NCBI GenBank assembly: GCA_021776345.1
Contig: JAJFGC010000089.1
Location: 1-34,047 of the forward strand
DNA length: 34,047 nt
Direction: 5' to 3'
DNA from: Hyphococcus sp.
GTDB lineage: Bacteria; Pseudomonadota; Alphaproteobacteria; Caulobacterales; Parvularculaceae
The stretch's first letter is position 1. Each line of letters opens with the position of its first letter. Below, piece after piece: positions 21,577 to 27,231 of this stretch. A program made the translations under genes and the position numbers. The notes under the pieces were generated by a model. The model saw only the letters and a program-made list of their open reading frames with translations. It made no database searches and was not told where the DNA came from.

Positions 21577-22299
21577 TTACACCCACTCAAATGTTTCAAG
21601 ATGCGCCCGCAAATGAAAAATCGTCGGGAATTTTTTCAGGATTAAATCCGAGCGCAAGCCGAGGCAGATATCTTTGATCGCTTGCGGCTGTTTGCGATAA
21701 TGCGTTCGCCCGCCAGTCAGATCATATAAAAGCCGGGCAATGGAGAGAATGTCCGCGCGGCGCTCTTCGCCGGGCGGGCGCCCCCAATCATGAAAATCGA
21801 TGGTGCGCAGGGAAAAGAAAACGCCGCGCTGCTCAACGAAAATATTGCCTGCATGCAAGTCGCCATGAAACTCACCGCGCGCATGAATTTCCTCGATGCC
21901 GCTGGTCAGATCATAAATCAGATGCAGCGCTTCGAAAACAGGCATGCGCTGACCACGATAGTTCTTTAGATAATCCTCGAGGATGGCGCCGTCGAAATAA
22001 TCGCTGATCAGGCAATAGACGAACTCATCGCCAATCCAGACCTCTTCGGCATGGTGGTAGTTGACGACAATGTCGCAGTCTTTCAGCTTGTCGAGCTTGC
22101 GGGCGTGGCGAACAAAGCGCTTTGCGTTGCTCTTGCGGCCCTTGAAATAAAGCTTCGCCGCCCTGGTCAGCCCTGTCGCCTTTTCCCGGATTTTGTAAAC
22201 CTCGCCCTCGGCGCCGCCGCCGACCCGTTCAAGGATTTCATATTTCCAGGTCAGCCGGTCGCCGCGGGAAAGGCCGAAAGAGGTGCGGGTCGTTGTCAC
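21577..22299 (-). CDS. Small Ser/Thr-type protein kinase, 240 aa
   Basis: Cytoplasmic kinase-fold protein consisting of little more than a catalytic domain. Glycine-rich loop GGGAEGEV (27-34), VAIK-type lysine K49 in AAKLY, catalytic loop HGDLHAGN (145-152, Asp147, Asn152), and metal-binding D168 in DFHDWG, where the usual DFG glycine is His. HGDLH in place of HRDLK is common in atypical bacterial and aminoglycoside/choline-kinase-like families. The essential Lys, Asp and Asn residues remain, so activity is plausible. Its start overlaps the stop of the preceding small exported-protein gene (ATGA), which implies coupled translation. The substrate is unknown. Confidence 0.87.
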   Translation of the reverse strand: MTTTRTSFGLSRGDRLTWKYEILERVGGGAEGEVYKIREKATGLTRAAKLYFKGRKSNAKRFVRHARKLDKLKDCDIVVNYHHAEEVWIGDEFVYCLISDYFDGAILEDYLKNYRGQRMPVFEALHLIYDLTSGIEEIHARGEFHGDLHAGNIFVEQRGVFFSLRTIDFHDWGRPPGEERRADILSIARLLYDLTGGRTHYRKQPQAIKDICLGLRSDLILKKFPTIFHLRAHLETFEWV

Positions 22300-22550
22300 A
22301 GCTTCTCACTAGAACACTTCAGACCGATTTTGGCGCCTGTTACGAGCGCTCTGACTACATCATCTCTGTTAGGGGTGTCGTCAGGTATCGGCTCATCACT
22401 TAGGCCGCAAAGCCATAGGTCTTCTTTTTCGTTTAGGCACACGCAAATATCAAGCGTCGCATCGTCAGCGGCGCCCACAGACTGATCAGCTTTTGATGAA
22501 ACACATACTGATATGCAAGCAAGCAGAGTTAGACCGATGAACCATTTCAT
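22296..22550 (-). CDS. Small exported Cys-rich protein, 84 aa
   Basis: Unrecognised. Hydrophobic N-terminal signal sequence (about 1-20, MKWFIGLTLLACISVCVS), then a short mature part with four cysteines (the pair CVC, then WLCG, and a C-terminal KCSS) that could form two disulfides. The LLAC stretch also slightly resembles a lipobox (Cys12). It lies 9 bp after the interrupted isovaleryl-CoA dehydrogenase gene and overlaps the kinase gene by 4 bp, so it is probably co-transcribed with both. The tight coupling to the kinase suggests, but does not show, a common pathway. Confidence 0.62.
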   Translation of the reverse strand: MKWFIGLTLLACISVCVSSKADQSVGAADDATLDICVCLNEKEDLWLCGLSDEPIPDDTPNRDDVVRALVTGAKIGLKCSSEKL

Positions 22551-22559
22551 GCGAGCAGC

Positions 22560-23732
22560 TTACCCTGTCTTCGCAAACAACTCCCGACCGATCAGCATGC
22601 GGCGAACTTCCGAGGTGCCAGCGCCGATCTCGTAGAGTTTGGCGTCACGCAAGAGCCGCCCTGTCGGGTAGTCGTTGATATAGCCATTGCCGCCGAGCAG
22701 CTGGATTGCGTCAAGCGCCACCTGGGTCGCTTTTTCCGCCGCATAAAGAATGCAGCCCGCCGCGTCTTGTCTCGTGGTCTCGCCGCGGTCGCAGGCTTTG
22801 GCGACCTGATAGACATAGGATTTGCAGGCATTGGTCGTCGTGTACATATCCGCGAGCTTGCCCTGCACCAGCTGGAAGGTGCCGATCGGTTTGCCGAACT
22901 GCTCACGCTCATGGATATATGGGAGCACGACATCGAGACAAGCCTGCATGATGCCAAGCGATCCGGCGGCGAGGACCGTGCGCTCATAATCCAGACCCGA
23001 CATCAGGACGCGCACGCCGTCGCCGATCTCGCCGAGGATATTTTCTTCCGGCACTTCGCAATCTTCAAATACCAGCTCGCCGGTGTCCGATCCGCGCATG
23101 CCAAGCTAGTCGAGCTTTTGTGCGGTTGAATACCCTTTGTATCCTTTTTCGACGATAAAGGCGGTGATGCCGCGCGAGCCCGCCTCCGGATCGGTTTTGG
23201 CGTAAGCCACGACCGTGTCCGCATCCGGCCCGTTGGTAATCCACATTTTGTTTCCGTTCAGAATATAACGATCGCCTTTTTTCTGTGCACGGAGCTTCAT
23301 GCTGACAACATCGGACCCGGCGCCGGGCTCGGACATCGCGAGCGCGCCAAGATGTTCGCCGGAGATGAGCTTGGGCAGATATTTTTCTTTCTGCGCCTTG
23401 TTGCCGTTGAGATTAAGCTGGTTGACACAAAGGTTTGAGTGCGCGCCATAAGAAAGACCAACCGCGCCTGACCCCCGGGAGATTTCCTCCATCACCACGC
23501 AATGAGCAACATAGCCGAGGCCTGTGCCGCCAAACTCTTCATCGGCGGTGATGCCCAGCAGCCCAAGCTCGCCTAGTTCCGGCCAGAGATCGCGGGGGAA
23601 CTTGTTGGTTTCGTCGATTTCCGCAGCACGGGGGCTGAGCTTATCCTCGACCCAGCGCGCCACCATATCGCGCATCTCCTCGATCATCGGATCGAGGTCA
23701 AATTTCATAAAGGCTTGTGAATTGGACCGCAT
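22560..23732 (-). pseudogene. ivd: Isovaleryl-CoA dehydrogenase interrupted by one in-frame amber codon
   Basis: Flavoprotein of leucine breakdown that oxidises isovaleryl-CoA to 3-methylcrotonyl-CoA. Two ORFs (23106-23732 and 22560-23099) lie in the same frame and together make a normal 390-residue acyl-CoA dehydrogenase. The break is a TAG at 23106-23108 between QKLD and LGMRGS, where the family has a lysine (KLDKLGMRGS). One A-to-T change in AAG explains it. The N-part has the FAD/substrate motifs ([38 protein letters not shown]). The C-part keeps the catalytic glutamate in LDYERTVLA and [26 protein letters not shown] ribosome binding site precedes the 23732 start. Alternatives: sequencing error or amber readthrough. 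It heads the row with the exported-protein and kinase genes. Confidence 0.9.
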
Positions 23733-23817: not shown

Positions 23818-24723
23818 CTAGCGCCGCTCACCCAGATTTCGGGCAATTTCGGCGATATCGCGCTTCAACTCGGCAATATCATCGCTTAACGCCTTTTGGT
23901 TAGCGACCAGATCATCAAGCCATGGGTCTGAGTCTTCCTCCACCACCCGCACGACGATCGCGACAAAGAGGTTCAGCATGGTGAAAGTGGCGATCAGGAC
24001 AAAGGTCAGGAAGAAAACCCAGGATCGCTCATGTGTCTCGGCGACCTGGCGCGCGATATCGGGCCAGCCCTCAAGGGTCATGACCTGAAAGAGCGTATAC
24101 ATCGCGGTGAAGACATTGCCGAAACGCTCAGGGTGTTCAGTCCCATAAAGCGTCGCGGCAATCACCGCGAAGACATAAATAATCAGCGCCAGCACAACGC
24201 CGACCGAGGCGATGCCGGGGATTGAATCAAGCAGCGCCGAAACCACAACCCGCATCCGCGGGATCACCGTGATCACGCGCAAAACCCGCAACACCCGGAA
24301 CGCCCTCAACGCGGCAAGACCGCTGGTCGCCGCGAGGAGTGAAATCACGACAATCAGGAAATCAAAGATGTTCCAGCCTTTTTTGAAATACTCGCCGCGC
24401 TCGGCGAAGATGCGCAGAATAATTTCCCCCACAAAGGCATAGATGATCACCTCATCCACCATCGACAGCTCCGGGCCCATCGCCGCCTTAACGTCAGGGA
24501 AGGTCTCGGCGCCGAGAATAACCGCGTTAACAATGATCAGAACGAGAACACCCACCTGAAAAGGCGCGCTCTCCACTAACTTGCGGATTGTGTCACCGGC
24601 TGTCGCCACTGGCCTTATGGTCCTTTGTGCCCGGATGGTGTGGAAAAATCTGGCTAAAGGGATTCTGCGCTGGAATGAACGCGTCAGTTTTCCCCGCTCC
24701 TTCGCACATTGCCAAAAAAACAC
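23818..24723 (-). CDS. BacNaV-type voltage-gated cation channel, 301 aa
   Basis: One-domain, six-helix ion channel that would assemble as a homotetramer in the inner membrane. S1 to S3 lie at about 55-130. S4 carries Arg at every third position (R140, R143, R146, R149, then R156 and R158). The pore helix and filter FQVMTLEGWPDIAR put E218 at the position of the selectivity-filter glutamate. S6 is at about 235-260, followed by an acidic neck and a coiled coil (about 270-298) typical of tetrameric BacNaV channels. NaChBac has TLESW where this has TLEGWPD, so ion preference (Na versus Ca) cannot be read off. The true start may be GTG at 24609 (263 aa), which would clear the divergent gene. Confidence 0.9.
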   Translation of the reverse strand: MFFWQCAKERGKLTRSFQRRIPLARFFHTIRAQRTIRPVATAGDTIRKLVESAPFQVGVLVLIIVNAVILGAETFPDVKAAMGPELSMVDEVIIYAFVGEIILRIFAERGEYFKKGWNIFDFLIVVISLLAATSGLAALRAFRVLRVLRVITVIPRMRVVVSALLDSIPGIASVGVVLALIIYVFAVIAATLYGTEHPERFGNVFTAMYTLFQVMTLEGWPDIARQVAETHERSWVFFLTFVLIATFTMLNLFVAIVVRVVEEDSDPWLDDLVANQKALSDDIAELKRDIAEIARNLGERR

Positions 24724-24780
24724 CTGCCTCAGGGGCGGCTGTTAACGTCTAATCGTTTGGCGGGGCGGCGAAAATCCGCT

Positions 24781-27231
24781 ATGCGAATGTCTTTCGGCCA
24801 GCGGAGTGAAGGCTTGAGCGACGAGCGCGACGACAATAATGCGTCTGGGGAGAGCCCGGCGGGCGATCCCGAGGGTGCTGGGGAGGGCGCGCCGCGCATG
24901 CGTTTTAAGGGCATTGTCGAGGCTGAAGGCGCCGCCCCTGCCGCTGCGGACGAGAATTTCGGCATTGCCGTTATCGGCCATGATGAACGCCGCTGGAACG
25001 CGATGAGCCGCCAAGTATGGCAGGCGTCACGCCTGACCGCGCTGTTCGTATTCTTCTCCTTCATTGTCGGCATGCCGCTCGGCAATTATTTCGCACATTT
25101 ACAACTTAACGATGGCGCCGCCGCCGGCTGGAACCCCCTCAGCGCTTTCGGATTTGAAACTCTTCTCTTTGCTTTTGTTGTGCCGGTGCTCGTCTTGCTG
25201 ATCGGCTATGCGTTGTCGCGCATGGCGACGATGCTCAATGCAGCTGAATCGATCGCCGCTGCAGCGCAACAGATGACAACGCCGGACCTCACCGCCGCCC
25301 GCAATGTTGACAGTGTTGGCGAGGTTGTGCGCGGTCACATGATGGCGCTCAATGAAGGGCTCGACGGCGCGCTTGGAAGACTGGCAAGCGTCGAGGCGAT
25401 GATCCGCGATCATGTTGCAGCAATTGAACTCGCCGGCGATGCGATTGAACATAAAGCGACCGGCGCGGTTGAACGGGTCGCCGATGAACGCTCGCGGTTG
25501 ATGGACCTGACCGAAAGTCTTAATGCGCATGCGGACAGCTTCGCGGCAGCCATCGCCGAAAAGGCGAAAGTCAGTATTGAATCGCTAAATTCGGCAGATA
25601 CGATTTCGACCCGGGTTGAAAAAGAATTTGACGACCGGCTTGGCCGATTGGAAGAGGCCGCCGCCCGCGCGCTATCGAGCTTTGAATCCTTACGCGATGC
25701 GCTGCGCGAAACTGACGAGACCATGCGTAGCGGCGTCCAGTCCATAGACATCGCGGCGGATAAAACGCTTGAGGCAACGCAAAAAGCAAAAGCAGCATCC
25801 GATGCCGCCGCTGAGTCAGCGGCGCGCAACGCCGCTAATATTGCCGCCTCCACCAGCCATGCCTCAGCGCAGGCGAAACAAGCCGCCGACAACGCTATTC
25901 AGGCCTCGAGAGAAGAAGCCGAACGCATTGCACAAGCCGCGATCGATGTTGCGACCGAAGAAACTTCAAAAGTTCAGGACGCCGCCGCCAGGGCGCTCGG
26001 CGACATGTCAGAGGCGACCAGGGAAGCCATCAAGGCCGCCCGCCAAGACGCGGATAAGGCGACCAAGGCCGCTGAAGACGTTTCCGAGGCGGCGCGCAAA
26101 ACCAGTGAAGCAGCGAAGGCCGCGTCTCAAGATGTTGCAACCGCCAGCGAACAGGCGCGTCAGACCTCCGACGAAGCAATCAAATATGCCGAAACAGCGG
26201 CTGGCCATATTGATGAGCGCAATAAGGCCCTCGCCGAGGCGCGCGCCGCCCTCGAGAAAGAAAATGCGCGGCTTGAAAACCTGATCGAGGAACAACGCAA
26301 CCGCGCCGATCGCCTGGCCGACGCCATCTCTTCGCAAACCGACCGCCTCAGCAAACTTGCCGAAGCGCAGCTTCGCGAACAGGAAGCCTCCGCCCGCCTC
26401 GTCGAGGCGCAAAACGACATGCAGGCCCGCGCCGCAAGAGAAGCGGAAGAAAAAGCGAAGGCTGAACAAGCTGCGAAGGAAAAAGGGAAAACCCTTGAAG
26501 CGGAACGCAAAGCTCAGGCAAGAGCCGAAGCAGAGGCTGCGAAGGAAACTGCGGACGCAGAACGAAAAAATGCGCAGCGCGAAAAAGCGCGCAACGACGA
26601 AGAACTCAAGCTGACAGCCAAGAACAAACAAACCAATGTCTCTAACGGCGCCGCACGACTTGAAGAACTGGCGCGCGATATCGCCGAGCGCCGTCCCCGC
26701 AATGCCAAAAAAAGCAAAGAGCCGCCGGTTGAAAAATCCGCCAAATCCGCAACCGACAAACGCTCAAAAGGCGACTTGTCATGGCGCGAAATTCTCGACG
26801 CCGCCGATGATGCCGAGCCATTGGAGCTTGGCAATGCAGCGAAAAAATCAACCAGCGACGCGCGCGATGACGCGGCGGAAGCCATTCGCATTATTTCCGG
26901 CTTGCAGGAATTTACCTTTGAGCTTGAAACCCGGCTTTATGGCGATCCTCCGCCGGCATTGCAGGAGCGGTATGATCGCGGCGACCGCAATGTTTTTGCC
27001 AATCGGCTTCTTCGGCTGAATGAGGCTGACGTAAAACGCCGAATACGGAATGAATCCGCAAAAGACCGCAAGTTTGAAGGCGGTGTTCACGGCTTTCTTC
27101 AGAATTTCGAAAAACTGCTCGAAGACGCAACCACATCGGAAACAGCAGACGAGGAGCTTGAAGAATATTTAAGCTCCCCGCTTGGCCGGGTTTATCTCCT
27201 GATTGGCGCAACGGTCGGGTATTTCGCCTGA
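24781..27231 (+). CDS. Two-TM inner-membrane coiled-coil protein, TipN-like (candidate)
   Basis: 816 aa from ATG 24781. Layout: an acidic Gly/Pro-rich cytoplasmic N-terminus (1-70), two membrane helices (about 85-103 and 125-145), then a very long Ala/Glu/Lys/Arg-rich coiled coil (about 160-640). A Lys-rich linker with KSKEPPVEKSAKSATDK follows, and then a distinct C-terminal globular region (about 670-816) containing SWREILDAADDAEPLEL, IISGLQEFTFELETRLYG, GDRNVFANRLLRLNEADVKRRI and SSPLGRVYLLIGATVGYF. Two N-terminal membrane helices plus a large coiled coil is the architecture of the Caulobacter birth-scar polarity marker TipN. I did not align them, so the name stays tentative. It is divergent from the channel gene and convergent with nhaA. 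Confidence 0.82.
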   Translation: MRMSFGQRSEGLSDERDDNNASGESPAGDPEGAGEGAPRMRFKGIVEAEGAAPAAADENFGIAVIGHDERRWNAMSRQVWQASRLTALFVFFSFIVGMPLGNYFAHLQLNDGAAAGWNPLSAFGFETLLFAFVVPVLVLLIGYALSRMATMLNAAESIAAAAQQMTTPDLTAARNVDSVGEVVRGHMMALNEGLDGALGRLASVEAMIRDHVAAIELAGDAIEHKATGAVERVADERSRLMDLTESLNAHADSFAAAIAEKAKVSIESLNSADTISTRVEKEFDDRLGRLEEAAARALSSFESLRDALRETDETMRSGVQSIDIAADKTLEATQKAKAASDAAAESAARNAANIAASTSHASAQAKQAADNAIQASREEAERIAQAAIDVATEETSKVQDAAARALGDMSEATREAIKAARQDADKATKAAEDVSEAARKTSEAAKAASQDVATASEQARQTSDEAIKYAETAAGHIDERNKALAEARAALEKENARLENLIEEQRNRADRLADAISSQTDRLSKLAEAQLREQEASARLVEAQNDMQARAAREAEEKAKAEQAAKEKGKTLEAERKAQARAEAEAAKETADAERKNAQREKARNDEELKLTAKNKQTNVSNGAARLEELARDIAERRPRNAKKSKEPPVEKSAKSATDKRSKGDLSWREILDAADDAEPLELGNAAKKSTSDARDDAAEAIRIISGLQEFTFELETRLYGDPPPALQERYDRGDRNVFANRLLRLNEADVKRRIRNESAKDRKFEGGVHGFLQNFEKLLEDATTSETADEELEEYLSSPLGRVYLLIGATVGYFA

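Follow-up and report, generated by a model that had tools for sequence, protein, structure and literature searches.

Nonsense alleles that arise by a single substitution, and consensus errors in draft genomes, are of a general and known kind. Among bacterial stop codons given a new meaning, the reassignments known before the screen reported in PMC8629427 were all of UGA, according to an excerpt of that report. Isovaleryl-CoA dehydrogenase (IVD) belongs to the acyl-CoA dehydrogenase superfamily, and an excerpt of PMC12369846 gives residue E286 of the human enzyme (precursor numbering) as the catalytic base. Here we describe an IVD gene (ivd) in which one base of a draft genome makes this conserved catabolic enzyme appear broken. 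We consider it highly probable (about 0.9) that the locus is an ordinary IVD gene struck by a lone nonsense substitution, with no special decoding involved.

An IVD gene with one inner stop

The window, that is, the whole stretch of DNA analysed (34,047 nucleotides), is the complete contig 281 of a Parvularculaceae draft genome, labelled G000, which was taken for a metagenome-assembled genome (3.64 Mb, 293 contigs, 96.7% complete, 3.1% contamination). The ivd gene occupies 22560..23732 on the minus strand, which the earlier note had not named, and comprises 390 codons, from an ATG at 23732 to a TAA at 22562-22560. The earlier note had claimed a single in-frame amber codon, and this was borne out: the sole inner stop is a TAG at 23108-23106, codon 209, within KLD*LGMRGS, and the halves on its two sides share one reading frame. 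The uninterrupted frame by which an IVD gene would be recognized is thus broken at codon 209. The open 5' part (23106..23732, minus strand) encodes 208 residues, which span the N-terminal domain and the greater part of the middle one, and ends in the TAG (23106..23108). The in-frame 3' part (22560..23105, minus strand) holds the remainder of the middle domain and the C-terminal domain; its first ATG, in frame, is codon 212 (23099).

With the stop read as X, all three Pfam acyl-CoA dehydrogenase domains (PF02771, PF02770 and PF00441) scored above cut-off, as an N-terminal (residues 18-126), a middle (130-225) and a C-terminal domain (237-385). Codon 209 falls inside the middle domain and not at a domain boundary. 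Among solved relatives of the product, the five best distinct sequences are all named isovaleryl-CoA dehydrogenase (563-653 bits, against 319 bits for the next), the best being 4kto, 4o5m and 1ivh. Glu250 of the product, encoded 3' of the TAG, pairs in the alignment with 1ivh residue 254, numbered 286 in 8sgr, the position of the human catalytic base. No NCBIfam model reached its cut-off, either for the product (23 families listed) or for an intact relative, L011 (22 listed). Judged by its frame translation, domains and solved relatives, the gene is an isovaleryl-CoA dehydrogenase, a known enzyme. The closest named locus is that of 'Marinicaulis sp.' OFTM65 (89% identity); taxonomy places Marinicaulis under Hyphococcus, Parvularculaceae, Alphaproteobacteria.

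Downstream of ivd, an ORF of 84 amino acids without a Pfam match (22296..22550, minus strand) follows after a gap of 9 bp (22551-22559), exactly as had been noted earlier, and overlaps by 4 bp a protein-kinase-like ORF (21577..22299, minus strand). Upstream lies an ion-channel ORF (Ion_trans; 23818..24723, minus strand). Within flanks of up to 1.5 kb at 26 other loci of the genus, the ion channel was found near ivd in 10, the kinase in 5 and the 84-residue ORF in 1; these counts bear on the possible polar effects on downstream genes that the earlier note had raised. The flanking genes agree with those of several relatives, and a misjoined contig is not indicated. Further upstream, an 840-residue ORF on the plus strand (24709-27231) has no Pfam match; several genomes have a relative of it next to the ion channel and ivd (in L069, 59% identity over residues 28-840).

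Codon 209 and constraint among relatives

We compared codon 209 across 106 further loci that share 72-91% identity with the window gene, made up of those from genomes of the genus plus the best 80 from named genomes. One (L034) ends before this codon; the other 105 all encode lysine (92 AAG, 13 AAA) and none shares the TAG. L012 and L069 have the same ivd sequence, so that at most 104 of the 105 are distinct, duplicates having been sought among 28 sequences. Three distant paralogues (35-39% identity), kept outside this count, also have lysine here. The TAG is one base away from AAG, the commonest codon of the relatives. Both the placement of the stop at a conserved lysine and its explanation by one nonsense substitution, as first proposed from the sequence, are supported.

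Inner stops are rare in this enzyme. A scan of the family found 52 IVD matches (E up to 1e-150) in 50 of 62 genomes, with an inner stop in G000 only. An even draw from the class, scored for at most six candidates per genome, gave 142 matches in 141 of 289 genomes, of which three were flagged for a stop. Two of these, both TGA, are not broken genes: one stop precedes the start and the other is the terminator. The two scans combined, which have G000 in common, thus contain one true inner stop in 193 IVD-like matches, which come from 190 genomes, and the lone inner stop is more than a chance observation. Stop flags were also raised on distant acyl-CoA dehydrogenase matches of other genomes.

The search for a second ivd that the earlier note had proposed turned up no other strong match: with E up to 1e-150 G000 has just one, and the next best among those listed are 36% identical. 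Elsewhere, G022 carries two full IVD genes (L015 and L037), each 87% identical to the window gene, and G009 has a full copy (91%) together with a C-terminal fragment that lies at the end of a contig (contig 306:2-304) and, over residues 290-390, is 95% identical to the window gene.

Apart from the TAG, ivd is constrained as a working gene normally is. In 27 sequences of the genus (L034 being partial), G000 has one private change, the TAG, at positions that do not vary among the remaining members, each of which has 0 to 5 such changes. With the TAG masked, comparison of ivd with 26 relatives showed mainly synonymous differences and gave dN of 0.063-0.141 and dS of 1.05-2.37, the latter near saturation. 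Twelve three-way comparisons, masked in the same way, assigned 47-80 synonymous and 6-17 nonsynonymous private changes to G000, and 38-79 and 3-13, respectively, to its sisters. An old pseudogene is rejected by the private-change and dN/dS comparisons, which reveal neither relaxed constraint nor further lesions. Since constraint is intact apart from the TAG, the lesion must be of very recent origin, an artefact or a codon that is decoded. These are the options that the earlier note had left side by side; the first two are jointly retained below, whereas readthrough is judged improbable. A decoded TAG, too, would leave a gene as clean as this one, and this counts against the explanation that we prefer.

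A young null allele or a wrong base

If a lone nonsense substitution is the whole explanation, the TAG would work as a normal stop and yield a product of 208 residues. As predicted from sequence, this piece would end inside the middle domain, ahead of the catalytic glutamate and of the whole C-terminal domain, and with these parts missing it would be expected to have no enzyme activity. The substitution may be a real null allele of very recent origin that is fixed or frequent in the population sampled, or a wrong consensus base in the draft assembly, produced by low coverage or mixed strains. Each falls just short of an even chance; the two are about equally probable, and the evidence does not part them.

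A real null allele is consistent with the distance of one base between the TAG and the relatives' commonest codon, and with the state of the leucine pathway in the family. No IVD match at E up to 1e-150 was found in 12 of 62 family genomes (G004, G020, G027, G029, G034, G037-G042 and G049), including all six genomes of genus g3. Completeness is only 76-84% in three of the twelve (G004, G027 and G029), two of which, G004 and G027, contain pieces of IVD. G020, of the same genus as G000, is an assembly of about 10 contigs with 98% completeness and lacks a match at this threshold, its best IVD match among those listed being 39% identical. Because these 12 genomes, G020 and genus g3 among them, are without a match, IVD is, by this reckoning, dispensable in the family.

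A carboxyltransferase has been kept in both G000 and G020 (83% and 81% identity, respectively, to the query from L070). It is likely mccB, because the L070 copy, not far from ivd, adjoins a biotin-carboxylase ORF, and the G000 copy is followed by an enoyl-CoA hydratase ORF. Pfam assigned these G000 ORFs carboxyltransferase and enoyl-CoA hydratase domains only, no NCBIfam model scored above cut-off for the carboxyltransferase, and both ORFs are open in G000. Stop flags were raised on carboxyltransferase matches in G020, G013, G010 and G001. The retention of a likely mccB in G020 without IVD favours a tolerated null allele, and a different acyl-CoA dehydrogenase may serve the leucine pathway of G020. 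If the base is real, ivd would represent a very young loss of one step of the leucine pathway, in a family of which several members are without the gene.

What tells against a real allele is an oddity elsewhere in G000 that casts doubt on single bases of the assembly. The sole tRNA-Cys found in this genome (contig 3, 23811-23884; L059, L155) has the anticodon ACA, whereas all 25 full-length copies from 24 other genomes of the genus have GCA, one weaker match (L181, 84%) being left out of the comparison. Two bases of the G000 copy, one of them belonging to the anticodon, are private changes at places where none of the 25 varies. ARAGORN agrees on seven of the tRNA-Cys loci, the flanks of the G000 locus match those of relatives (on both sides in G001, for example), and a pattern search for an ACA tRNA-Cys in 62 family genomes found it in G000 only. 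Nineteen genes of the window use TGC 42 times and TGT 20 times for cysteine. Transfer RNAs with A34 efficiently read only U-ended codons unless A34 is converted to inosine, as stated in an excerpt of PMC8266599. The ACA anticodon could reflect base errors, an unassembled second copy of the gene or a real A34 tRNA-Cys; the private changes hint at wrong bases in the G000 consensus.

A wrong base at codon 209 would be an artefact of consensus calling or of a mixed population in a fragmented draft, in keeping with the 293 contigs and 3.1% contamination of G000, with the tRNA-Cys and with the lack of decay elsewhere in ivd. Of all single changes to 19 window genes, 2120 of 66987 (3.2%) create a stop, so that an assumed error rate of 1 in 100,000 bases over an assumed 3.2 Mb of coding DNA would give about one false nonsense codon per genome. 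Against this, the error rate of G000 is not plainly high: no inner stop occurs in 67 of its domain matches, comprising 21 to the TonB receptor domain (PF00593), 31 to the ABC ATPase (PF00005) and 15 to the acyl-CoA dehydrogenase C-domain (PF00441). Five of the 67 score under the family cut-off, and the 67 include the C-domain of ivd, itself 3' of the TAG.

Possible decoding of the TAG and comparison with known systems

The suggestion that the stop is tolerated by readthrough fared poorly. We looked for the amber-suppressor tRNA that the earlier note had named as a check, and no tRNA with a CUA anticodon is among the 36 found in G000. The complete relative G001 has 39, and tRNA-Asp, tRNA-Ile(GAT) and tRNA-Ala(TGC) are missing from the 36, so the G000 set is incomplete. 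TAG terminates 7 of the 23 window ORFs taken as genes. Together with the clean domain matches, these findings give no sign of recoding or suppression at codon 209.

Readthrough or suppression of the TAG in living cells, with some full-length enzyme as its product, is accordingly very improbable. The normal constraint on the remainder of ivd and the incomplete tRNA set would fit such decoding; the terminator use of TAG, the want of a CUA tRNA among those found, the domain scans without another inner stop and the absence of this TAG from all relatives tell against it, as does the restriction to UGA of the earlier-known bacterial reassignments cited above from an excerpt. A fuller version, to which we give very little weight, holds that a near-cognate or unassembled suppressor tRNA decodes the TAG, that readthrough sets a low level of leucine breakdown and that the ACA tRNA-Cys is a second oddity of the same genome. 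Least probable of all is a two-part gene restarted at the ATG of codon 212, its two pieces working together: this in-frame ATG lies three codons past the TAG, but the break is inside the middle domain, the arrangement was not seen in the other genomes of the 190, and by eye no ribosome-binding site is evident.

The lone nonsense substitution can be set beside three known systems. The window gene resembles IVD of the acyl-CoA dehydrogenase superfamily (4kto, 4o5m, 1ivh) in its full-length match, its three Pfam domains and its glutamate at the human catalytic position, and differs in the inner TAG. With stop-codon reassignment and amber suppression in bacteria it shares a stop codon where a sense codon is conserved; unlike those systems, it is a single case, with no CUA tRNA among those found and with TAG still in use as a terminator. 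Such a case can be told from recoding by checking the codons of relatives, the tRNA set, how the stop is used elsewhere and further genes of the genome in question. With single-substitution nonsense alleles and draft consensus errors the gene has in common one stop, an otherwise intact frame and intact orthologues, and nothing in ivd departs from that kind.
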